Virus record (IMG/VR): IMGVR_UViG_3300036832_001176 | Location: 1 to 41,995 of that record | DNA: 41,995 nt | Reading direction: 5' to 3' (one strand) | From: a virus | Shown here: positions 117 to 39,582 of the stretch, one piece after another | Position numbering within the stretch: position 1 is the stretch's first letter | Layout: each line of letters starts with the position of its first letter | Position numbers and translations under genes: made by a program | Notes under the pieces: generated by a model | What the model was told of the DNA's origin: nothing | Databases searched by the model: none | Seen by the model: the letters and a program-made list of their open reading frames with translations, nothing else

Positions 117-386
117 TTACAAATTTTTCATAGAATTCTGTGAAACTTTTCGCCACATACCTGAGACGTTCTCGGTTACAATCTCATCGATAGCATCCTG
201 TATTGCTAGAGCCTGGTCGGGCTCTGACAAATCATTACTAATTTTTGCTATCCTAGCCAGCATGCCCGGGGTATCATAACCAAGTCTAGTGTCATAGGCC
301 AGCCACTCTTCGAACCGAGTGAACGGATCGAATGGATTGTCTACAGTAGTTAGCATGTACTCTGTTGGTTGATTAGTATCAGTCAT
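117..386 (-). CDS. Conserved small phage protein, unknown function
   Basis: An 89-residue protein of the type starting EYMLTTVDNP, which I recognise as widespread in uncultured tailed phages near the packaging genes. It has no membrane segment or signal peptide; the middle (DTPGMLARIAK, LSEPDQALAI) looks helical. It is the last gene of the leftward run. On a circular map it sits directly upstream of the small terminase. The ATG at 386 overlaps the TGA of the preceding gene (TGATG), which implies translational coupling. A GTG one codon earlier (389) is an alternative start. The function is not known to me. Confidence 0.8.
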   Translation of the reverse strand: MTDTNQPTEYMLTTVDNPFDPFTRFEEWLAYDTRLGYDTPGMLARIAKISNDLSEPDQALAIQDAIDEIVTENVSGMWRKVSQNSMKNL

Positions 387-3187
387 CACATCTCACTCAT
401 AGCAGTCTTCAATGTTGATAGTGAGATGCCCAGTTGATTGGCTACCTCAGCCTGAGTGTAGCCGGAGTCAAGCATAAGCTTTGCTCTCACACTCTTGGCA
501 GTAGTCATCTTAGGTTGAACCTTTGGTGTAGCTAGTTTCTTGATTGTCTCTAGATCGCCGTGCTTTAGTATCTTAGTTAACTTATGATTACTTATAGCGC
601 CTGCTTGAATAGCATCCCATTCGCTCTGTGTTGGCTTGATAGCCGTCTTCTTTGCACCCGTTCTAGATCTTGCTTCAGCCAACGCTTGGTTCTTGATCTT
701 CCTTACATCAGCAGACTCCATGTTTGGATGAGCCTGGCGTTTCTGGGAGACCACCGTATTTGCTATGACCTGGGCTTGTCTTTCACGAGGGGCGTTCATT
801 TCAGCGAGGGCTAATTTCGCATTGAGGGAGGATACTTCTTTGGCGTATGTTTTCGCAGCAGAAGGCGATGTTTTAGTAGGCTGGGTATTAATCGACTCCT
901 TTCTTGCCGTATTAGCCAAACCCTTCAACTTGTTAGAATGATCGGCATAGATTAACTCAACACGAGTACCAGAAGGTTGCGAGACAAGAGTACGAGCATC
1001 TTCAGTTACAGCAAGACGTTCATGCTTCTCCATCTTTGGAATCATCTTGCCTGTTTGTACATACTCCTTCTTTCCAGTGGCGGGGTTAACTTTGAGCTTT
1101 CTTTCTGGAATCAATGCTCCTGTCGGAACATAGACTTTCTTTCCAGAAGTCTTATCAATAAAACCACCTTGGCCAGCAGGTCTAGCTTTCCTTTGCGGAA
1201 TCCAATGTTCAGCGCCTGCTTTCGAAATCAGAGTAGATGCTCCTGCTCTTTTACCGCCCTGATACTTCTCTTTTAATTGAGCAATACCATTGTTTCGTTC
1301 TGATGCCTTGAAATCAAGAGAGTGTTTCTCAGCGTCAATAACAACCATCGAATGCCTAACCGCACGAGCAAGTTCGTCAGCCTTAGCACCATGAATGGTC
1401 ATGTCAGTAATCAGATTGGAAACACTGCCCATCTCTTGTTGCTTACGAGAAGCATTTGGTGCTCGACCTTCATAATCAACTTTGCCCTTCTTATAGATTC
1501 CACCATCAATAGTTCGCATTCCATCATATGGCGGATACGAATGTTTAGTATCAAAAGTTTTTAGATCTTCAAGAGCTGGGGTACTTTTAACTGATTTTCT
1601 ATTATTAGGGATCAGTGTGACATAATCACCATCGAAGTCAGCACCAGACAAATGCTGAGCGACACTATGATGAATACCAATAGCATCAGTAGTATGTTTA
1701 CCTAATAATTTTAGAGCTTCCTTATTACGATTGTTCACCGTCAATTGTGGAATCTCAAATGTACCACCATGCGGATAACGGATTAGAGCTACACGAGTTC
1801 CATTTAGCAACGAAGGCGCATGAACTTCAGTCGGCTTCATTGATTTAATTGGCAGAAGTACCTTTGTTGATTGACCTGGCAAAGAAGCTGCTTTGAGATG
1901 AACTGCTGCAGAATCTGTTTCATCAGCAAAAGTATCAAGAAGCTTTTTACGAACAGTTGGGTTTGTCAAATGCTTAATGGCATTGTACTCATTGACACGA
2001 CGTTCATAAGTAAGATCAAGTTGAGATCTGGCCAACTTTGGATCTTGCTTAGACAACATCTGTGAAGGGAGATTTTTAGACCATTTATCCCAATCGCCTT
2101 CTTCATTGACAATATTCATTGCCGATGATACTTTTCCATCTGTCCCATGAACTTGTCGAACAATTGCACCGAAAGGATTATCCGGATCAATGTTACCGGA
2201 TGCATCTCTTTCCATTTCTTTCAGTGCGTCTTTCTTACGCCCAGTACTACTCTTATTGGTATTGAAGACAAGATCTGTGCCAGCAGGAAGACCTTCTTTA
2301 TAAACAGCCATACCTTTCAAATAATGCGTTCCATCAACAGAAATACGAACCTGTGCATAATTGGAGTTACCAATTGAAAGATCTTTTACGCCAGGTCGAA
2401 CATAGATAACACCGTCTGCTATACTTCCACCATCTTCAGCATAATTGATACCAAGACGCCTCGAGTTTACAGAGATGGGGGGTTGAATTCCAAGATAAGT
2501 TCTCCCACCATCTTCAGAATATGTATCGTTGATCTGTTTAATTTTGTTACGATTTTGGAACGCTTCAGAATACGTAGTTCCAGGTTTGGCCAAAACTTTT
2601 ATAGTAGTAAAGTTGCCTGTACCAAGTTGTTGAACTTTCACATAATGAAGTGTGTAGCCTTCTTCTTGAAGCATGGCTACAGCAGTATTGAATTTATCTT
2701 TACTAATACCAAGTGATACGTTTGGATCATTAGATAGAGGCAAAGCTCTTTCTACTTGAGTACCAACATCTATGAAATTCTTTTCATCAACTTGTTTCTT
2801 CAACATATCAGCAGTAGCATGAAGAGTGTCGGCTTTATCTTTTGCGCCAGGAGCAAGAAGAGCACGCACAGAAGATTCGTTAAGACCCATATACTCGCCG
2901 ATCTTAACGTTCGAATAGCCCTTCTCTCTCAACGCTTCAGCTTGATTAACTTGTGATTGCTTTTTCTCAGCAAGAGCAATAGTTCTTCTTGCGCGATACT
3001 GAGTTGTCGTAAGACCCATACCTACAGCAATCTCAGTATCCGACATACCTTGCTTTCGCATCATCTCTGCTGCATCAAGAAAACTTCTATTACGAGTAGT
3101 GCTGGCTCCACCAGATCCCCATGGATAACGACCAGAATGTCGTGGAGTGCCGTAATGTTTGAGATACTCAGATTCTGAAACGATCAC
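386..3187 (-). CDS. Putative two-barrel (DPBB) single-chain RNA polymerase with HTH segments and N-terminal tag
   Basis: A 933-residue protein. GADFDGDYV (about 515-523) carries the DxDxD-type metal motif of two-barrel RNA polymerases (beta-prime NADFDGD, YonO and RDR DxDGD). It is preceded by VALIRYPHGG (about 466-475), comparable to the NRAPTLHR strand of beta-prime. It is followed by LARAVRHSMVVIDAEKHS (about 606-623), resembling the LA-lhS-AVD-K segment of RDR/QDE-1 enzymes. Helix-turn-helix-like segments lie at about 40-60, 85-110 and 900-930. The N terminus carries HYGTPRHSGRYPWGSG (11-26). The GTG start at 3187 has GAGGAGTC upstream and overlaps the TGA of the nuclease gene (GTGA). DNA-dependent RNA synthesis is inferred; another DFDGD-bearing, non-polymerase fold is the alternative. 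Confidence 0.7.
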   Translation of the reverse strand: MIVSESEYLKHYGTPRHSGRYPWGSGGASTTRNRSFLDAAEMMRKQGMSDTEIAVGMGLTTTQYRARRTIALAEKKQSQVNQAEALREKGYSNVKIGEYMGLNESSVRALLAPGAKDKADTLHATADMLKKQVDEKNFIDVGTQVERALPLSNDPNVSLGISKDKFNTAVAMLQEEGYTLHYVKVQQLGTGNFTTIKVLAKPGTTYSEAFQNRNKIKQINDTYSEDGGRTYLGIQPPISVNSRRLGINYAEDGGSIADGVIYVRPGVKDLSIGNSNYAQVRISVDGTHYLKGMAVYKEGLPAGTDLVFNTNKSSTGRKKDALKEMERDASGNIDPDNPFGAIVRQVHGTDGKVSSAMNIVNEEGDWDKWSKNLPSQMLSKQDPKLARSQLDLTYERRVNEYNAIKHLTNPTVRKKLLDTFADETDSAAVHLKAASLPGQSTKVLLPIKSMKPTEVHAPSLLNGTRVALIRYPHGGTFEIPQLTVNNRNKEALKLLGKHTTDAIGIHHSVAQHLSGADFDGDYVTLIPNNRKSVKSTPALEDLKTFDTKHSYPPYDGMRTIDGGIYKKGKVDYEGRAPNASRKQQEMGSVSNLITDMTIHGAKADELARAVRHSMVVIDAEKHSLDFKASERNNGIAQLKEKYQGGKRAGASTLISKAGAEHWIPQRKARPAGQGGFIDKTSGKKVYVPTGALIPERKLKVNPATGKKEYVQTGKMIPKMEKHERLAVTEDARTLVSQPSGTRVELIYADHSNKLKGLANTARKESINTQPTKTSPSAAKTYAKEVSSLNAKLALAEMNAPRERQAQVIANTVVSQKRQAHPNMESADVRKIKNQALAEARSRTGAKKTAIKPTQSEWDAIQAGAISNHKLTKILKHGDLETIKKLATPKVQPKMTTAKSVRAKLMLDSGYTQAEVANQLGISLSTLKTAMSEM

Positions 3188-3741
3188 GACTCCTCCTCTA
3201 ATCTTAGTTGATTGATCTGTTTATCGAAGTCTTGAATCTTTTCCATAATGAATACTATGTCGTCTGGATCAGCATCGAAAATCACAACCTCATTATCTTG
3301 ATAAATGCGCAATTCAATATTGATAGCAAATGGATCTTTGTCATACTCTAGACAGAACAGAGCCGCATAGATTTCAAGTTGATGAACCGAACCAGGTATG
3401 ATGCCAGTTTTCAAATCAAAGATACGCAGCGTGTTGTATCTAAATGAAATCCCATCTGCTGTGCCAAAGCAATTCTCAGAATAGAACAGAATTTGTTCGG
3501 TCGTCATTCTGTGACGAATCGAATCATTGATGTACTGACCTAGAGTACCAATATGATCCGAAAGTCTTCCTGCATTGATTTCAGTTTGAGCATACAGATG
3601 TTGAGCAATACCATAAGCTGCTGCCTGCGAAGTAGTCCAACGTTCAGCTAATCTGTTAGGTGTATAGTTCACCCAATGATACTGACTAGGACTGAGGAAC
3701 GCGTGTTCTCCCTGGAGATTCAAATGCTTGTTGAAGCGCAT
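3184..3741 (-). CDS. PD-(D/E)XK-type nuclease, Cas4/RecB-like
   Basis: A 185-residue protein. The core GTADGISF (about 93-100) followed by LRIFDLKTG and then HQLEIYAALF gives the D...D-x-K and Q-x-x-x-Y pattern of RecB/Cas4-like nucleases. That family cleaves DNA ends or single strands in recombination and replication. GGAGGTTTTAG precedes the ATG at 3741. The gene overlaps the upstream nuclease gene by 56 bases, and its stop overlaps the start of the RNA-polymerase-like gene, so the three are co-expressed. I see no FeS-cluster cysteines like those of Cas4, which favours a DUF2800/RecB-type phage exonuclease. Confidence 0.75.
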   Translation of the reverse strand: MRFNKHLNLQGEHAFLSPSQYHWVNYTPNRLAERWTTSQAAAYGIAQHLYAQTEINAGRLSDHIGTLGQYINDSIRHRMTTEQILFYSENCFGTADGISFRYNTLRIFDLKTGIIPGSVHQLEIYAALFCLEYDKDPFAINIELRIYQDNEVVIFDADPDDIVFIMEKIQDFDKQINQLRLEEES

Positions 3742-4030
3742 CTAAAACCTCCTCTTCAATCTCTGGGTAAATATACGATGCAAACGACATCTCATTTAAT
3801 TTCTTGACAAAATAATCTTGGTTTGGTTGAACTTTTGCATCTGCTGATCGCTTAACCTCAAGCGACGCCCATCTGTCATTATAGAGAATGAGAAGATCAA
3901 CTATACCTTGTATAAGCGAACTGTCATTCTTCAATATCATACAACCAGGAAATCTATCGTTCAATCTTTTAATCAACTTTGCTTGATATTGATTCTCTAA
4001 CGGCGTTGCCCTCGTTCGTTGATATGCCAC
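3686..4030 (-). CDS. VRR-NUC-like PD-(D/E)XK nuclease
   Basis: A 114-residue, single-domain nuclease of the kind found in many phage replication modules. The motifs run in order: a glutamate in LENQYQAKL near the N terminus, LKNDSSLIQGIVDLLIL with the catalytic aspartate, then ASLEVKRS as the E-x-K. A Q-rich VQPNQDYFV helix follows. VRR-NUC proteins often act as Holliday-junction or flap nucleases; which substrate applies here cannot be told. The start is GTG at 4030, sharing one base with the TAG of the upstream gene. The C terminus runs 56 bases into the next nuclease gene. Confidence 0.8.
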   Translation of the reverse strand: MAYQRTRATPLENQYQAKLIKRLNDRFPGCMILKNDSSLIQGIVDLLILYNDRWASLEVKRSADAKVQPNQDYFVKKLNEMSFASYIYPEIEEEVLDALQQAFESPGRTRVPQS

Positions 4031-5718: not shown

Positions 5719-6909
5719 CTACCATTCAAGCTCTTTTTCGTCAAAATTGGACGCATTGAAGCTCCTCTTTGCCTTCAAAGTTCTCCAAATTGCCATGTCA
5801 ACTACGCTTCTAGACTTCAAAATGTAGTACCAAAGGTGGGTATAAGGCGTATTCATGCGGTCAATTCGACCATGAGCCTGCTCCCAATGCTTGTACGAGT
5901 ACGTCAAAGAGTAAAAAAGCATCGCATCAGTCTCTATACAGTCCCATGCTTCGCTCCCAGCAATGTATTGTACAAGGTAAACCCACGAATCCGTCTCAGG
6001 AATAGCCTGGTGTCTATGCCCGTTCCACTCTGCCACAGTATGCCCGAACGATTCTAAGCCCCTTAGAGCTTCTAATTCATAGTTGAAGTTATAGAATACG
6101 ATTAGACGCTGGTGTTGTCTTAGAACGTCTCTCACAGCCTCTAAACGGCTTGTATTCTCATTAGCGACCCTGCGCATTACCATAAAAAGCTCAGATATGT
6201 CTCGAATGGGCTTATTCAGGTATGGATTCCATCTGGTCTTGATCACACTATCCATGAGAATCTCATCGTGCTCCACATAAACGATCTTCTCGTGCCGTAT
6301 CGTCTCCTTCATGTACGGCATGTGAACCAAGATCTCGTCACGTAGCCTGTTCAGCTTCTGTACACCCAGATAGCGATCGACTTTAGGGAACTTTGAAAAG
6401 GGTTTGTAAACGACATGCTCTCGCTTGAACTCTGTACGATTCTTATAAAACCCATTGGCGATGAACACTGGAATGTAATCAAGCCAGGTATCCCCAGGCG
6501 TTGCACTGAGTAGTATCCAGGTATTGTTCTTAACGATCTTGAGAAATGCCTTAACCCATGCGCCATTTCCCACCAGTCTCTGCTCGTCAAATATGAAAAA
6601 ACAATCTTGCATACCTGACCATTTGTCAATGTTGTTCCAGCTGTCGACATTCAGAACACCATAGTAGGTGTCTTCGTCAGTTCCAATCGCCGCCGCAGCA
6701 GCTTCACGCTTCCAGTCAAGGCTATCTCTCTTCTTGGCCGTTGTGATGACGACAATGTTCTTGGGTTGTTCGTGTTCAAGATAATAGGCGATAGCTACTC
6801 TAGTCTTGCCTACGCCCACTCCTCCCCATAGTATCGATCCATTTTTTAGTTTCTCTAATGCTTCTACTTGGTGGGGCTGTAAATCCATAAAGCCACTTTC
6901 TCGGTCCAT
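5719..6909 (-). CDS. SF2 DEAD/DEAH-like helicase
   Basis: A 396-residue superfamily 2 helicase with motifs in order: Walker A GGVGVGKT (29-36), Ia-like VVITTAKK (53-60), Walker B FDEQ (107-110, a DEAD variant), motif III SATP (135-138) and motif VI QAHGRIDRMNT (344-354). Length fits the compact phage helicases used for replication initiation or recombination. The start is uncertain: ATG at 6909 or 6888, both with weak ribosome sites. An upstream ATT with AAGGAA seven bases before it is also in frame. The 5' end overlaps the zinc-ribbon gene in another frame. Confidence 0.85.
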   Translation of the reverse strand: MDRESGFMDLQPHQVEALEKLKNGSILWGGVGVGKTRVAIAYYLEHEQPKNIVVITTAKKRDSLDWKREAAAAAIGTDEDTYYGVLNVDSWNNIDKWSGMQDCFFIFDEQRLVGNGAWVKAFLKIVKNNTWILLSATPGDTWLDYIPVFIANGFYKNRTEFKREHVVYKPFSKFPKVDRYLGVQKLNRLRDEILVHMPYMKETIRHEKIVYVEHDEILMDSVIKTRWNPYLNKPIRDISELFMVMRRVANENTSRLEAVRDVLRQHQRLIVFYNFNYELEALRGLESFGHTVAEWNGHRHQAIPETDSWVYLVQYIAGSEAWDCIETDAMLFYSLTYSYKHWEQAHGRIDRMNTPYTHLWYYILKSRSVVDMAIWRTLKAKRSFNASNFDEKELEW

Positions 6910-13860: not shown

Positions 13861-14602
13861 CAAACCTGCGCTTAGGTCGTCGCCTTCTATCCGCTGAATG
13901 CCTGATAGTTCCTGGCTGTGTATCAGCGAAACTTCCTGGGTCACGAAGCACTTCCATATCCATGTGTAACCTTTCGTTACGAATATGCACGATATTGGGA
14001 TCGTGTGAACCGTGTCCCCAACGTCTTAGATTCTTAAGCCCGACGATCATGTCTATATTATCGACTGTGGTGTCTCTTGTATCCGACAGGGCACCATCAC
14101 CCTCGTAATAAATATACGACACTTGATCATGCTCGGGTTCGTTCTCTGTGAACTCGTCAAAGTGAATTATGTATGGCGTGTTCTGACTGCGGTGAGAAGT
14201 CTCGTACTTGTAATCCCACCCAGCTATCTCTTCCATCTCCTCCAACGCCCCGACTTCTTCCTCTTCGGCAGGAAACTTCTCGTTCGCTTCTTTGATCGCT
14301 TGGAGTTCAACTTCGGAATACCGCTCCTTAACCGCTTCAACAATAGGCGGCTTCGGTTCAGCAGCTTTTGCTTTTTGGAAGTAATGTTCTCGCATTTTCG
14401 AAATTTCATTTATAGCCAACCCTTGATATTTTGTCTTCATACGACTTTCCGCAACACGGTAAGCTAGTCCAAACCCCAACGCAGCGCCTACACCGGCTCC
14501 AATGAGAAAGAAGCTTATGTCTCGCGGATACAAGCGGCGAGTTGCTTCAGCCACATCTTCGATTTTGTCTGCTACTTCTTCGATTAGTTGTGCATCTGCC
14601 AT
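13841..14602 (-). CDS. Membrane-anchored conserved phage protein
   Basis: A 253-residue protein. One transmembrane helix (FFLIGAGVGAALGFGLAY, about 31-48) is followed by a charged helical region (KAAEPKPPIVEAVKERY; a run of glutamates near 113-124). The globular end contains PYIIHFDEF, VSYIYYEGD and SHDPNIVHIRNERL. I recognise this combination from many uncultured phages, always with the neighbouring membrane proteins. It overlaps the preceding gene by 19 bases. The cytoplasmic domain could tether a phage process to the membrane. Function unknown. Confidence 0.8.
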   Translation of the reverse strand: MADAQLIEEVADKIEDVAEATRRLYPRDISFFLIGAGVGAALGFGLAYRVAESRMKTKYQGLAINEISKMREHYFQKAKAAEPKPPIVEAVKERYSEVELQAIKEANEKFPAEEEEVGALEEMEEIAGWDYKYETSHRSQNTPYIIHFDEFTENEPEHDQVSYIYYEGDGALSDTRDTTVDNIDMIVGLKNLRRWGHGSHDPNIVHIRNERLHMDMEVLRDPGSFADTQPGTIRHSADRRRRPKRRFDDEDFR

Positions 14603-15507
14603 GATGTAGACTCCGTATTTGTATCGATCTTCTCATAGATTACGCCATCAACATTGAAATCGAGAAGAATTGAATTTTCACGACCATTGACAAAATCTCT
14701 TATCGTATGATCGCCCCCTTTGTAAATCCCGAAATCGATGTGATTATCGGTTATTGTGCCAGCCGTGACAATCCAGCCGACAATAGAACCGGCCTTTGAT
14801 CTCGGAATCCCGAGAAGGTCATACACCTCGTTCAAGAAGACATGCCCACGAGCCAGCAACAGATCATTTGCATAACTCTGCTGACACTTCAAGAACAGGA
14901 GATTATACTCCGGCTCCTTTGACCACGAAGTGGATAGCGGATCGAAGAATCTCGCATAGATCGATGGTTCATCATAGCCCACACGAGTAACCGTCTTCTT
15001 CTTCCCGGTCTCCTCATCGATGATCTCGACTTCTCTACTACCGTGGCGAAACTCCAGGTCCTGATCTTCGCCATACTTCTCGACCACACGATGCCGGTAC
15101 TCTTTGAAGCCCTTGTCAAGAGCGGCGTATGCTGCGGTTAGGGCTGCGTTCCGTTCATTAAGGATATTGTGAGAACGTGTCAGAGCGGCGATAGAAGCCC
15201 CACCCACTACAATCGACGGACCATAGAGCCTGACAATCTTTACCGCAGCCTGGACATGAATGATCGCAATATCTCGGCTACGATCCTTTTCACTGTAATC
15301 GTCATGCACAAGTGTCTTTGCGGTATTCAGTTTTTGCTGAGTATTGTCAAGGACGTCCTGCATCTTCAAAGTCGCGCGACAGGCGAGAACGGTACTTCCC
15401 ACAACACCGGCAACACCGGCACCAAACAGCAATGTCGGTGAATTCCTTTCGAGCATAAACCCACGATGGGCAACTCCCTTGGAAATCACCTCTGGCACAA
15501 ATCTCAT
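14584..15507 (-). CDS. DUF6353-like membrane protein, larger paralogue
   Basis: A 307-residue protein from the ATG at 15507 (AGGAG upstream; the longer frame lacks a ribosome site). It has two hydrophobic hairpin-like segments (LLFGAGVAGVVGSTVLA and GPSIVVGGASIAALT). Between and after them it has charged helices (SEKDRSRDIAIIHV, EYRHRVVEKYGED) and a C-terminal soluble domain. It shares its layout (glycine-rich first helix, Y-G/V-P-x-V-V-G second helix, E-Y-x-x-x-V-x-E-K motif) with the protein at 17243-18013. I read both as DUF6353-type phage membrane proteins. Role unknown. Confidence 0.75.
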   Translation of the reverse strand: MRFVPEVISKGVAHRGFMLERNSPTLLFGAGVAGVVGSTVLACRATLKMQDVLDNTQQKLNTAKTLVHDDYSEKDRSRDIAIIHVQAAVKIVRLYGPSIVVGGASIAALTRSHNILNERNAALTAAYAALDKGFKEYRHRVVEKYGEDQDLEFRHGSREVEIIDEETGKKKTVTRVGYDEPSIYARFFDPLSTSWSKEPEYNLLFLKCQQSYANDLLLARGHVFLNEVYDLLGIPRSKAGSIVGWIVTAGTITDNHIDFGIYKGGDHTIRDFVNGRENSILLDFNVDGVIYEKIDTNTESTSWQMHN

Positions 15508-15517
15508 AATGGTTCTC

Positions 15518-15700
15518 CTAAAATAATTGGCCTTGTTCAGGCGGTTTCTCTTTTTCAGGTAACGGACGTACGTCTTCAATATCAACATTGTTCAGATATA
15601 TGGCAACAACTTGATCGTCCGCCATCTTATCTACCTGTGCGCTCCAATTTTGATTCGGATACATTCTCTTTACTTCGTCTCGAATCTGAGCGACGTTCAT
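15518..15700 (-). CDS. Small conserved phage protein (60 aa)
   Basis: Starts MNVAQIRDEVKRMYPNQNW and continues AQVDKMADDQVVAIYLNN, ending in a proline- and glutamate-rich tail. It is helical and soluble. The ATG at 15700 comes directly after the TAG of the upstream gene, so reinitiation is likely because the ribosome site is weak. I recognise the type from similar phage operons, but no function is known to me. Confidence 0.7.
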   Translation of the reverse strand: MNVAQIRDEVKRMYPNQNWSAQVDKMADDQVVAIYLNNVDIEDVRPLPEKEKPPEQGQLF

Positions 15701-16677: not shown

Positions 16678-16701
16678 AATAACTCCAAATTAGTAGTTGG
16701 G

Positions 16702-16730
16702 TCTCATTATACGCAGTGTTTTCTACGCGA
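16702..16730 (-). promoter_or_regulatory. Repeat promoter a (TCGCG-N14-TATAATGAGA)
   Basis: On the minus strand TCGCG (16726-16730) and TATAAT (16706-16711) are separated by 14 bases and followed by GAGACC. It overlaps the end of the upstream gene: the TAG stop lies directly after TCGCG. It drives the 94-residue protein gene that starts 25 bases downstream. It is one of seven copies between 16.7 and 20.2 kb. Confidence 0.75.
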
Positions 16731-17242: not shown

Positions 17243-18013
17243 TCACCACATCCTCGTGTATTCAGCAAAGGGCGCATCAGCGAAGTCGATCGCAATGCAT
17301 GGGCGTTGATCCGTGGACATAACTGTTGAGAACGTCACCTCAAGACGACGATCGTGATTCCAGCCTACCGTATCGGAATATGGCGTCGGAGGCAGACCGA
17401 TCTCGTCGTAGAACGCACTCAGACTCGCGTATTCATGCGCAATGATCTCGTAGTTGATCTTGTTCTCAGCTTGCCTGATCTTCTCCATCGAACTCTGGAA
17501 ATATCGCCCTGTCGTCATGTCAAAGCAGAGAACCTCACCCGTACCGGCAAGAATGATCTCTCGAGTGGGCAGAGGTGCGTTACTGACACGGTCTTGAGCG
17601 ATCTCGTCACGGACAGCTGTTTCCTTGGTCTCACCGATCTTCTCGATGACCTTCGTCTTGTATTCCTGAAATGCTCTCTCAGATATGCCAGAAGCTACCG
17701 TCAAAGCAGCGATCCTCTTCGATGCCGCGTGATTCGACATGATGATAGCCGCAATCGTGCTGCAACCGACAGTGACCGGCGGAACATAGAGCGGCCAGAC
17801 TGCCTTGACTACTTCCTTATTGGTCAGAGGCCGATCTTCGTCCATACCTACAATCTTCTGCTTCTCGTCAAGGATTCGAATTGCCTTGACCGATGCACGT
17901 CCTGTCAAATATGCGGTTGTGACTACACCGGTGACACCCATACCGGTGAGGATTGTAGTGGGGTCAACACTGGCCAATTTGTCCCTGCCAAGGTTAAAGA
18001 GTTCGGGAAACAT
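17243..18013 (-). CDS. DUF6353-like membrane protein, smaller paralogue
   Basis: A 256-residue protein from the ATG at 18013 (AAAGG ten bases upstream). Its first hydrophobic segment is TILTGMGVTGVVTTAYLTG and its second YVPPVTVGCSTIAAIIM. These are followed by the FQEYKTKVIEKIGE helix and a soluble domain with EIILAGTGEVLCFDM and YASLSAFYDEIGLPP. The order and spacing match the protein at 14584-15507, including the LLG/LPP-type motif after a long helix, so the pair look like diverged duplicates. Function unknown; expected at the inner membrane face. Confidence 0.75.
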   Translation of the reverse strand: MFPELFNLGRDKLASVDPTTILTGMGVTGVVTTAYLTGRASVKAIRILDEKQKIVGMDEDRPLTNKEVVKAVWPLYVPPVTVGCSTIAAIIMSNHAASKRIAALTVASGISERAFQEYKTKVIEKIGETKETAVRDEIAQDRVSNAPLPTREIILAGTGEVLCFDMTTGRYFQSSMEKIRQAENKINYEIIAHEYASLSAFYDEIGLPPTPYSDTVGWNHDRRLEVTFSTVMSTDQRPCIAIDFADAPFAEYTRMW

Positions 18014-18230
18014 TGCGCAGTCGCCTTTCAATATTTGCTAGAGCTTGTTTGTCACTACTAGAGGCAGATATAATTTCTACTACTTTGGCATCTGAAAGAG
18101 TAACACGAACATAACGGAGGAAGGTCTTCGTCCTACGCCAATGAATATAGCGGGATAGGAGCGCCTTCGTCGATTCGTATACAACGACCCAAACCAGTCC
18201 GCCAAGAAGACCGTATAGTACATATTTCAT
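17994..18230 (-). CDS. Single-pass membrane protein (78 aa)
   Basis: Begins MKYVLYGLLGGLVWVVVYES, one N-terminal transmembrane helix, then a basic segment (SRYIHWRRTKTFLRYVRV) and a helical tail. The ATG at 18230 lies one base after the TGA of the upstream gene, pointing to reinitiation; an ATG at 18251 is an unlikely alternative. It overlaps the next gene by 20 bases. No family is recognised. Confidence 0.7.
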   Translation of the reverse strand: MKYVLYGLLGGLVWVVVYESTKALLSRYIHWRRTKTFLRYVRVTLSDAKVVEIISASSSDKQALANIERRLRNVSRTL

Positions 18231-18360: not shown

Positions 18361-18462
18361 TAGCCTTTCAATTAGATGAAAAAAAAGAAGAGAACGCATG
18401 GTAGCCAAAGTATCTGCAGTTTTCGGCCCATAGGCTCCGCTCAGCAGTGCCTCATAACGTCC

Positions 18463-18491
18463 TCTCATTATAAGGCATGTTTTCTACGCGA
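18463..18491 (-). promoter_or_regulatory. Repeat promoter b (TCGCG-N14-TATAATGAGA)
   Basis: On the minus strand TCGCG (18487-18491), 14 bases, TATAAT (18467-18472), then GAGAGG. It overlaps the last codons of the gene at 18484-19020, whose TAG stop directly follows TCGCG. It should drive the operon of four genes from 18360 down to 16723. The leader contains a poly-U stretch just before the first gene, but no convincing terminator stem. Confidence 0.75.
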
Positions 18492-19035: not shown

Positions 19036-19177
19036 TAGAAAAATAAAAAAAGAAAAAGAAGAGGTAACAGTCCAACGAAAACTGTTCATTAAGCTACCTA
19101 ATATTCTCAAGCGGTAGCCACTCCGGGCAGGGTTTGAACCTGCGCATTCGTGTCTCGGAATCACAAACGTGATCTCT
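19036..19177 (-). ncRNA. Leader or small RNA containing a tRNA-like 3' half
   Basis: Starting just below promoter d, the minus strand contains a perfect T-arm (19127-19143, GCAGG-TTCAAAC-CCTGC). A five-base variable region and an anticodon-arm-like stem with loop TTCCGAG (19149-19165) precede it, and seven acceptor-like bases (19120-19126) follow. No matching 5' acceptor or D-arm exists and no CCA follows, so it is not a working tRNA gene. Hairpins at 19160-19173, 19093-19118 and 19066-19086 lie around it, the last followed by a long U-rich tract (19036-19060), attenuator-like. The membrane/HTH gene begins at 19020. Confidence 0.5.
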
Positions 19178-19206
19178 TCTCATTATATGACATGTTTTTC
19201 TTGCGA
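19178..19206 (-). promoter_or_regulatory. Repeat promoter d (TCGCA-N14-TATAATGAGA)
   Basis: On the minus strand TCGCA (19202-19206), 14 bases, TATAAT (19182-19187), then GAGAAG. It starts the transcript with the tRNA-like leader and the gene at 18484-19020. It lies directly after the terminator of the previous unit. Confidence 0.75.
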
Positions 19207-19423: not shown

Positions 19424-19444
19424 AATAACTCCTTCATAGTAGGG

Positions 19445-19473
19445 TCTCATTATAGGGTATGTAAATTGTGCGA
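19445..19473 (-). promoter_or_regulatory. Repeat promoter e (TCGCA-N14-TATAATGAGA)
   Basis: On the minus strand TCGCA (19469-19473), 14 bases, TATAAT (19449-19454), then GAGACC. It lies directly below the terminator of the upstream unit and drives the 57-residue membrane protein gene. Confidence 0.8.
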
Positions 19474-19686: not shown

Positions 19687-19708
19687 CTGAACTCCTTATG
19701 TAGTAGGG

Positions 19709-19737
19709 TCTCATTATAGGCGAAGTAATATCTGCGA
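19709..19737 (-). promoter_or_regulatory. Repeat promoter f (TCGCA-N14-TATAATGAGA)
   Basis: On the minus strand TCGCA (19733-19737), 14 bases, TATAAT (19713-19718), then GAGACC. It drives the gene at 19513-19686. The spacer differs most from the family here (ACTTCGCC before TATAAT), showing that only the two boxes and GAGA are strictly kept. Confidence 0.75.
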
Positions 19738-20135: not shown

Positions 20136-20153
20136 ATAGCTCCTTTAGGTTGG

Positions 20154-20182
20154 TCTCATTATAGGCTATGTTTTTTCACCGA
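20154..20182 (-). promoter_or_regulatory. Repeat promoter g (TCGGT-N14-TATAATGAGA)
   Basis: On the minus strand TCGGT (20178-20182), 14 bases, TATAAT (20158-20163), then GAGACC. The upstream box deviates (TCGGT for TCGCA). It overlaps the end of the upstream gene, whose TAG stop lies in the spacer. It is the rightmost copy and the first after the tail operon. Confidence 0.7.
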
Positions 20183-36567: not shown

Positions 36568-36912
36568 CTACTTCTCAATAGATCGGCGTGCGTGAACACG
36601 ACTACCAACATAAGCAGCAGTCGCTACAGGAACCACAATAGTTGGAGCTAAGGTATAAAGAGCAGCAGCAACCCATTTTTCTCCTCGCGTCATTCGAAGT
36701 GCTGTTGCTTGATCTGGGTGTTTTAAACTAATATCTCCAGTTTTCACATTTGCTCGTGCCCGTTTAATTTCTTTTTCACGAGCCTGTGGTGTTGGGTATT
36801 TAGAATAAAAGGTTTTTGAACCTTCTGTTCTATGAACACCCCATTTCATACCTAAAACGCCATGATGAACCAATTCTGCAGGCGTGCCCGGCTTTTCAAT
36901 AGGGCACTTCAC
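36568..36912 (-). CDS. Tagged membrane-type protein with HHGVLGMKWGVHR
   Basis: A 114-residue protein. Residues 16-28 are HHGVLGMKWGVHR, the same peptide as in the protein at 38675-39163. Charged middle (FYSKYPTPQAREKEIKRA) and one C-terminal membrane-like helix (APTIVVPVATAAYVGS). The start is GTG at 36912, overlapping the terminase TGA. It lies between terminase and portal, so a virion or assembly role is plausible. The hydrophobic segment could anchor the procapsid or be an internal virion helix. Confidence 0.7.
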   Translation of the reverse strand: MKCPIEKPGTPAELVHHGVLGMKWGVHRTEGSKTFYSKYPTPQAREKEIKRARANVKTGDISLKHPDQATALRMTRGEKWVAAALYTLAPTIVVPVATAAYVGSRVHARRSIEK

Positions 36913-38674: not shown

Positions 38675-39163
38675 CTAGAGAGCTGCAGCAACACCTAATT
38701 TAGCAGCCTTTGACACAACCTTTTTCTTAGAAATCTTTGATACTGCTTCCATGGTTGCTTTCTGTCCTTCAGGAGATTTCAAATATGAAGTAACAAATTT
38801 GGATCCCTTTTCGAAATGACTTTCAGGACCCAATCTTTTAGCTTGCTGCTCCAAATTCTTACGCATATTGTATTTTTGCAACTCATCATTTGAAAGAGCG
38901 TGTGTACCACTCTTTTTGAGTTTCTGTTCTACTATTCTTGCCGAGACAGCATCTGGATGCGCTGGTAAACCTCGCCCACCTTTAGTTGTTACTATAGTTT
39001 TAATCTGTGGATTCGATTTCGTCTTGACTGATACTTCACTTTTTGATTTCTTCTTCGAAGAACTACCTGAACTCTCAGACCCACCACTTCTATGAACGCC
39101 CCACTTCATCCCCAGAACCCCATGATGAGCAAGTACCTTTTGGATCACTTCCTCATTATCCAT
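38675..39163 (-). CDS. Tagged basic protein with HHGVLGMKWGVHR
   Basis: A 162-residue basic protein from the ATG at 39163 (CAGGAG upstream; TAATG overlap with the previous stop). After EVIQKVLA comes HHGVLGMKWGVHR (13-25), then a serine/lysine-rich linker (GGSESSGSSSKKKSKSE). A helical C-terminal region follows (ARIVEQKLKKSG, KYNMRKNLEQQAKRL) with a weakly hydrophobic end. No enzyme motif. Tagged proteins of this kind occur near capsid genes in many uncultured phages. An internal virion or scaffold-like protein is my best guess. Confidence 0.65.
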   Translation of the reverse strand: MDNEEVIQKVLAHHGVLGMKWGVHRSGGSESSGSSSKKKSKSEVSVKTKSNPQIKTIVTTKGGRGLPAHPDAVSARIVEQKLKKSGTHALSNDELQKYNMRKNLEQQAKRLGPESHFEKGSKFVTSYLKSPEGQKATMEAVSKISKKKVVSKAAKLGVAAAL

Positions 39164-39582
39164 TAGGCTACTCTCCTGCCCGGCCACGGATACCAAGGAT
39201 AATCCGGAGGAGGCGTTGGGTCCGGATTGGGATCTACCCATCCTGTTTCCTCTCGATGAACATTCAAACGCCACTCGAGTTCTTTGATCTGCTCATTTAG
39301 TGCAGTGATGACAAACGATGTTGAGGGAGGATCAAACAGCATACGAACCCGCAAATATACATAAGTCTTGACTGTATTATATTGAAGATCGGTATCTGTT
39401 ATGAAATCGGTCCAAACGGCAGTTTCATCTTCAATCATGAAACCTTCGGCAGGACCAACGCCCAATTGGGTGAGAGTAGAAAATGCAGTGTTGATATGAG
39501 TTGTGACATCATGATCAAACGCAGTATAGTCTTCTGCAAGTCCCAATATCTTCTTAGTGCCTATAAGAATACTAGTTTCCAA
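39163..39582 (-). CDS. gp6-like head-tail connector (adaptor)
   Basis: A 139-residue protein beginning at TTG 39582, chosen because AAGGAGGG lies seven bases upstream. ETSILIGTKKILGLAEDYTA, FDHDVTTHINTAFSTLTQLG, GFMIEDETAVWTDF, VKTYVYLRVRMLFDPP, NEQIKELEWRLN: the standard features of gp6-like adaptors that bind below the portal. The proline-rich end (PTPPPDYPWYPWPG) is an addition. It sits upstream of terminase rather than after the capsid gene, an order found in some gut phages. Confidence 0.82.
   Translation of the reverse strand: METSILIGTKKILGLAEDYTAFDHDVTTHINTAFSTLTQLGVGPAEGFMIEDETAVWTDFITDTDLQYNTVKTYVYLRVRMLFDPPSTSFVITALNEQIKELEWRLNVHREETGWVDPNPDPTPPPDYPWYPWPGRRVA

Follow-up and report, generated by a model that had tools for sequence, protein, structure and literature searches.

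A predicted single-chain, two-barrel RNA polymerase encoded by a lineage of siphophages

The window examined here is a stretch of viral DNA of 41,995 nucleotides (IMG/VR record IMGVR_UViG_3300036832_001176, positions 1 to 41,995), and one of its genes, at one end of the phage genome, probably encodes a catalytically competent RNA polymerase made of a single chain with two double-psi beta-barrels, which is the best explanation we have for the model of its fold and for the residues that its homologues share. The active-site fold of such an enzyme is common to the polymerases of all cells and to those of RNA silencing in fungi and plants. Computation shows both the fold and the conservation of the two halves of the active site. 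RNA synthesis, the use of a DNA template and a role in transcription we infer by analogy with the few relatives of established activity.

No relatives of cellular RNA polymerase are simpler than the single-chain two-barrel polymerases, from which the silencing polymerases of eukaryotes are believed to derive, and few of them have been assayed. The family described here is found in about 250 sequenced phages, mostly isolated on Arthrobacter, Gordonia, Streptomyces and other convenient laboratory hosts, and is accompanied by a possible promoter element and by a conserved peptide at its N-terminus. It is not a previously unnoticed protein but adds to a known kind, the single-subunit two-barrel polymerases of phages, which are well established (PMC5467207, PMC7281927 and PMC10770324, where 23 families are compared). 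The PHROGs family to which it belongs, phrog_4291 (a match to residues 3-932 of 933, E 0), is labelled "RNA-dependent RNA polymerase", as it is in RefSeq; the polymerase of phage Scarif had already been given that name (PMC11536984), that of phage Oengus is a "putative RNA polymerase", and most of the 250 phage records have "helix-turn-helix DNA-binding protein". The original prediction that such genes are usually labelled hypothetical was therefore only partly right, since an HTH or RNA-dependent RNA polymerase label is commoner among the relatives. No experimental study of any family member was found in the open-access literature. Should the reading proposed here be true, the HTH and RNA-dependent RNA polymerase labels on about 250 records would be corrected.

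Table 1. Features of the window discussed in the text
Feature	Positions	Strand	Basis or remark
Small conserved gene directly downstream of the polymerase gene, unknown function	117..389	(-)	PHROGs, phrog_4303
Predicted two-barrel single-chain RNA polymerase gene	386..3187	(-)	933 aa, GTG start; ORF open throughout
HTH of the C-terminus (residues 896-932), similar to sigma-70 region 4	392..502	(-)	Pfam
Candidate bridge-helix-like region and next helix	1322..1453	(-)	Invariant positions; helices in both models
Second double-psi barrel region, residues ~463-528	1604..1801	(-)	Invariant in 123/123; fold matches
DFDGD, predicted Mg2+-binding catalytic aspartates	1625..1639	(-)	ORF translation and 123-sequence alignment
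First double-psi barrel region, residues ~244-323	2219..2458	(-)	Lysine conservation, core model, fold matches
HTH-like repeats in a helical region near the N-terminus, residues 36-110	2858..3082	(-)	phrog_3855, Pfam
N-terminal tag HYGTPRHSGRYPWGSG, residues 11-26	3110..3157	(-)	Conservation; predicted disorder
Cas4/RecB-like exonuclease directly upstream	3184..3741	(-)	phrog_3953, E 1.3e-63
VRR-NUC-type nuclease	3686..4030	(-)	phrog_93; named VRR-Nuc in HotFries
DNA helicase	5719..6909	(-)	phrog_62
Helicase - primase-like - family B DNA polymerase fusion, 1246 aa	9586..13326	(-)	
Promoter-like element	16700..16730	(-)	0 mismatches
Promoter-like element	18461..18491	(-)	2 mismatches
Promoter-like element	19176..19206	(-)	2 mismatches
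Promoter-like element	19443..19473	(-)	0 mismatches; just past a terminator-like hairpin
Promoter-like element	19707..19737	(-)	1 mismatch
Promoter-like element	20152..20182	(-)	1 mismatch

Conservation of the active-site motifs

The original prediction had been drawn from three motifs, all of which lie where it placed them: DFDGD at residues 517-521, R-Y-P at 470-472, which is 47 residues upstream, and LARAVRHSMVVIDAEKHS at 606-623, about 85 residues downstream. In an alignment of 123 homologues from viral contigs and bacterial genomes, some of them only about 45% identical to the window polymerase, R470, P472, H473, D517, F518, D519, G520, D521, M586, G587 and N591 are invariant (123/123), as are S613, I617, D618 and H622, while K621 is present in 121. 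Such invariance indicates that the motifs are not due to chance, and not one of the 123 homologues lacks the aspartates of DFDGD. The family is a large one, our search having recovered 80 relatives on viral contigs, 250 phage records and at least 138 contigs of bacterial genomes; many of the last are long contigs of Clostridia and thus apparently prophages.

The second barrel region holds RYPH (470-473) together with DFDGD. The first contains AQVR (278-281), K291-G, K312 and K323, and here Q279, R281, K291, G292 and K323 are found in all 123 homologues and K312 in 116. In QDE-1 the first barrel contributes Q736, K743 and K767 and the second D1007, D1009 and D1011 (PMC1750930); judging by order and context, the counterparts in the window protein would be Q279, K291, K312 (or K323) and D517/D519/D521. 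The original prediction had called for a search for another barrel with catalytic lysines, and the candidate for it is the stretch AQVR...K291G with K312/K323, where the spacing of the lysines and the QVR context fit K743 and K767 of QDE-1 in a comparison made on the sequences. Following DFDGD, the helices predicted at residues 579-598 and 603-622 are both conserved, the former with MGxVSNLITDMT and the latter with HSMVVIDAEKH (612-622), and the former is a candidate bridge helix as far as prediction and conservation can tell.

The invariant residues of the putative active site point to a working enzyme. In such an enzyme the three aspartates of the second barrel would hold the catalytic Mg2+, K291 (with K312 or K323) of the first barrel would contact the incoming NTP or the 3' end of the RNA, as has been proposed for QDE-1, and the helices of residues 579-622 would be the bridge helix and the element that comes after it.

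Predicted fold and comparison with known polymerases

AlphaFold2 models were obtained for the full-length protein (56 aligned sequences; pLDDT 81.7, pTM 0.70) and for its core, residues 160-770 (111 sequences; pLDDT 92.3, pTM 0.84), and both were compared with the PDB by Foldseek, with a significance cut-off of E<=1e-3. All 16 significant matches of the full-length model were QDE-1, RDR2 or gp62 of phage P74-26. As expected if DFDGD is surrounded by double-psi barrels, the core model matched solely single-chain two-barrel polymerases (22/22), the best E-values being 7.7e-10 for QDE-1, 1.7e-8 for P74-26 gp62, 7.8e-8 for P23-45 gp64 (8f72) and 1.5e-7 for RDR2; multisubunit polymerases ranked below these and were not significant. 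TM-scores over the core are modest (0.35-0.44), and it therefore seems that the catalytic centre is common to these proteins while the overall arrangement of domains differs. In a library of viral structures just three matches fell below 1e-3, and of these two were either partial or bore the name RNA-dependent RNA polymerase. With the protein or its profile as query, Pfam, NCBIfam and PDB sequences gave HTH matches alone and no polymerase domain, and the polymerase had no match in a library of defence systems.

Of the characterized phage enzymes, YonO of Bacillus phage SPbeta is a DNA-dependent RNA polymerase (PMC5467207), and gp64 of phage P23-45 is described as one in PMC10770324. YonO resembles the window protein in being a single chain of similar length (839 aa) from a phage of a Gram-positive host, and in having VR..KG, RxPH, DxDGD, G..SN.IT and ID..K in the same order, including GeySNnIT...IDfAK, which is similar to the bridge-helix-like region and the helix after it. 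However, there is no significant sequence similarity between the two (hhalign probability 2-3%, E 0.013-0.023), and YonO falls in phrog_8308, so that the window protein does not belong to the YonO family proper. The non-virion polymerases of the Thermus phages, P23-45 gp64 and P74-26 gp62 (PDB 8f72, 8f5m), are significant structural matches, as given above, and gp64 has AQVR...KG, RRP, DYDGD and AVD..K (AVDrqK in its own form), but they are 616 aa long as against 933, belong to a different PHROG family and lack the HTH ends and the tag of the window protein, and the sequence similarity of gp64 is at noise level. The order [Q]VR...KG / RxP / DxDGD / D..K is thus common to the window protein, gp64 and, without the Q, YonO, three proteins from three different PHROGs families, and profile comparisons with YonO and gp64, although of a probability of only 2-6%, give weak alignments in the right register at RxP(H), DxDGD, G..SN.IT and D..K. 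QDE-1 and RDR2, the former the best structural match of all, are eukaryotic proteins with a role in silencing, and are only about 12% identical to the window protein in the structural alignment. The virion RNA polymerase of the crAss-like phage phi14:2, gp66 (PDB 6vr4), is a member of the same two-barrel superfamily, but has 2166 residues, is packaged in the virion and does not match significantly (E 0.038). The low profile probabilities with YonO and gp64 and the modest TM-scores count against a polymerase of this kind, as does the location of the gene at the end of a recombination/replication block.

In some SPbeta-type relatives (YonO-family loci L226 and L180) the match to YonO extends over 3.7-3.8 kb as against 2.5 kb, which suggests an insertion within yonO.

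The N-terminal tag and the HTH ends

The original prediction had also given the protein DNA-binding HTH ends. That of the C-terminus is real, a Pfam HTH_24 match lying just above the cut-off at residues 905-933 (Sigma70_r4_2, E 3.1e-5, is below it), and that of the N-terminus is supported by the PHROGs family phrog_3855 (HTH DNA binding; E 1.2e-9, residues 71-109), with Pfam HTH matches below the cut-off.

Ahead of the N-terminal HTH-like repeats lies the peptide HYGTPRHSGRYPWGSG, which ranks third in conservation among the 16-mers of the polymerase and is about as conserved as the active site, within a segment (residues 1-33) that has a pLDDT below 50 in the full-length model and is predicted to be disordered. 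The 20-mers around it are 80-85% identical to those of Lactococcus and Faecalibacterium relatives, whereas the whole proteins are only 41-44% identical. In searches that included the phage records, this peptide was found in the polymerase family alone, at the N-terminus, and its role may lie in docking or packaging. In HotFries (L162, 40562-40664) gene 56 seems to have been annotated from a start that is 34 codons too late, the conserved tag being in frame just upstream. Two window ORFs of the structural region, 36568-36912 (-) and 38675-39274 (-), both carry another peptide, HHGVLGMKWGVHR; the idea that the tag is in a like manner common to other virion proteins was rejected, the searches having given the tag in the polymerase family only and so shown no such link.

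A promoter-like element of the lineage

An element of the form TCGCN7ACAN5TATAATGAGACC occurs six times in the window with no more than two mismatches, each time on the coding strand, where shuffled sequences give an expectation of 0.00. Aligned as TCGCA-N6-ACA-N5-TATAATGAGACCC, 32 intergenic instances were collected from HotFries, Scarif, Avazak and the window, and in the annotated phages most copies are located 28-35 nt ahead of a start codon, usually that of a small gene. The distance from ACA to TATAATGA is strict in the viral relatives: it is 5 nt in 22 copies, every one of them on the plus strand, 4 nt in one copy and 6 nt in none. Lactococcus phage P078 has 8-10 copies of TTTTACATACCCTATAATGA and Arthrobacter phage Tribby a variant of the element; a motif search of the partial genome of Faecalibacterium phage Oengus found no copy. 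When viral contigs were scanned for the element and 50 of those bearing it were followed up, 35 proved to encode at least part of the polymerase and a further 14 a DNA polymerase or capsid protease that belongs to the lineage (weakly so in one case), whereas the last contig had a single copy, probably by chance; the same scan with the reversed pattern gave none. Judged by these scans, the element is specific to the lineage.

TATAAT is the bacterial -10 consensus, and for that reason the host RNA polymerase may be what reads the element. On the other hand, since no -35 hexamer stands at the customary spacing from TATAAT and since the flanks are kept from Lactococcus to Streptomyces, the reader may be a phage-encoded factor, which could be either the polymerase described here or a protein that activates the host polymerase. 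That the phage polymerase reads this element (core TTTACA-N5-TATAATGA, conserved in phages of Lactococcus, Streptomyces, Gordonia and Arthrobacter), the two forming a matched pair, is a tentative proposal that we regard as rather doubtful; if true, about 250 cultured or sequenced phages would use a private, QDE-1-like transcription system.

One may also consider that virions carry the polymerase and inject it to transcribe the first genes, with the N-terminal peptide as its packaging or docking tag. This could account for a tag that is conserved like the active site though predicted to be disordered and for promoter-like elements that precede small, early-looking genes, and related enzymes are injected by a crAss-like phage and by P23-45 (PMC10770324; title of PDB entry 6vr4). 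Nevertheless, the gene is found outside the structural cluster, and gp64 of P23-45, which is structurally close, cannot be detected in virions (PMC10770324), so that we consider packaging unlikely.

Genome neighbourhood and phage lineage

HotFries, Scarif and Avazak have the same order of genes as the window (helicase, HNH, VRR-NUC nuclease, Cas4/RecB-like exonuclease, polymerase and small ORF), Tribby, P078 and Oengus have it in a looser form, and a small gene occupies the same position in all six phages. Among the phage records, 250 have the polymerase, 253 the helicase-DNA polymerase fusion and 246 the capsid-protease gene, with the same breakdown by host. Since the three are distributed alike, they represent one lineage with a common core, and the polymerase is a core gene of this siphophage lineage, which infects Streptomyces, Gordonia, Arthrobacter, Lactococcus and Faecalibacterium. 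A DUF6353 protein is present in two copies in the window, 14584-15588 (-) and 17243-18031 (-), and HotFries also has two.

The near one-to-one occurrence with the fusion and the place of the gene at the end of the replication/recombination genes might suggest that the two-barrel enzyme is the primase of the replisome and supplies RNA primers to the helicase-DNA polymerase encoded nearby. Co-occurrence was discarded as specific evidence for this, because the capsid-protease gene, which served as control, co-occurs equally and thus reflects a single phage lineage and no link to the replisome. Moreover, the fusion seems to combine an SF3-type helicase and a region similar to family B polymerases with a primase-like stretch of its own, IDFD...SGVHLH (residues 494-561), whose Pfam match to Prim-Pol (E 0.023) lies below the cut-off, and since another primase-like region is available there, transcription fits the two-barrel enzyme better than priming, which we find quite improbable.

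Template and role

The name of phrog_4291 implies a true RNA-dependent RNA polymerase, which would copy RNA of the phage or of its host, and the best structural matches, QDE-1 and RDR2, might suggest the same. The name was probably transferred from QDE-1, which has itself been solved on DNA templates (PDB entry titles), and YonO and gp64, both phage single-chain two-barrel enzymes, are DNA-dependent (PMC5467207 and, for gp64, PMC10770324), while the window protein bears DNA-binding HTH regions. The template in the phrog_4291 name is therefore doubtful, and an RNA-copying enzyme very improbable. We also know of no RNA-silencing partner in phages of the lineage, which counts further against it. 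That polymerase activity has been lost and the protein is a DNA-binding regulator, as the HTH label of most records would have it, is scarcely credible, since a regulator would not need all the catalytic aspartates and two candidate lysines that are invariant in 123 sequences.

For the single-chain RNA polymerase that we favour, the relatives suggest that the template would be DNA and that phage genes would be transcribed once infection is under way, with the HTH regions at both ends, possibly together with a partner protein, guiding the enzyme to its promoters.
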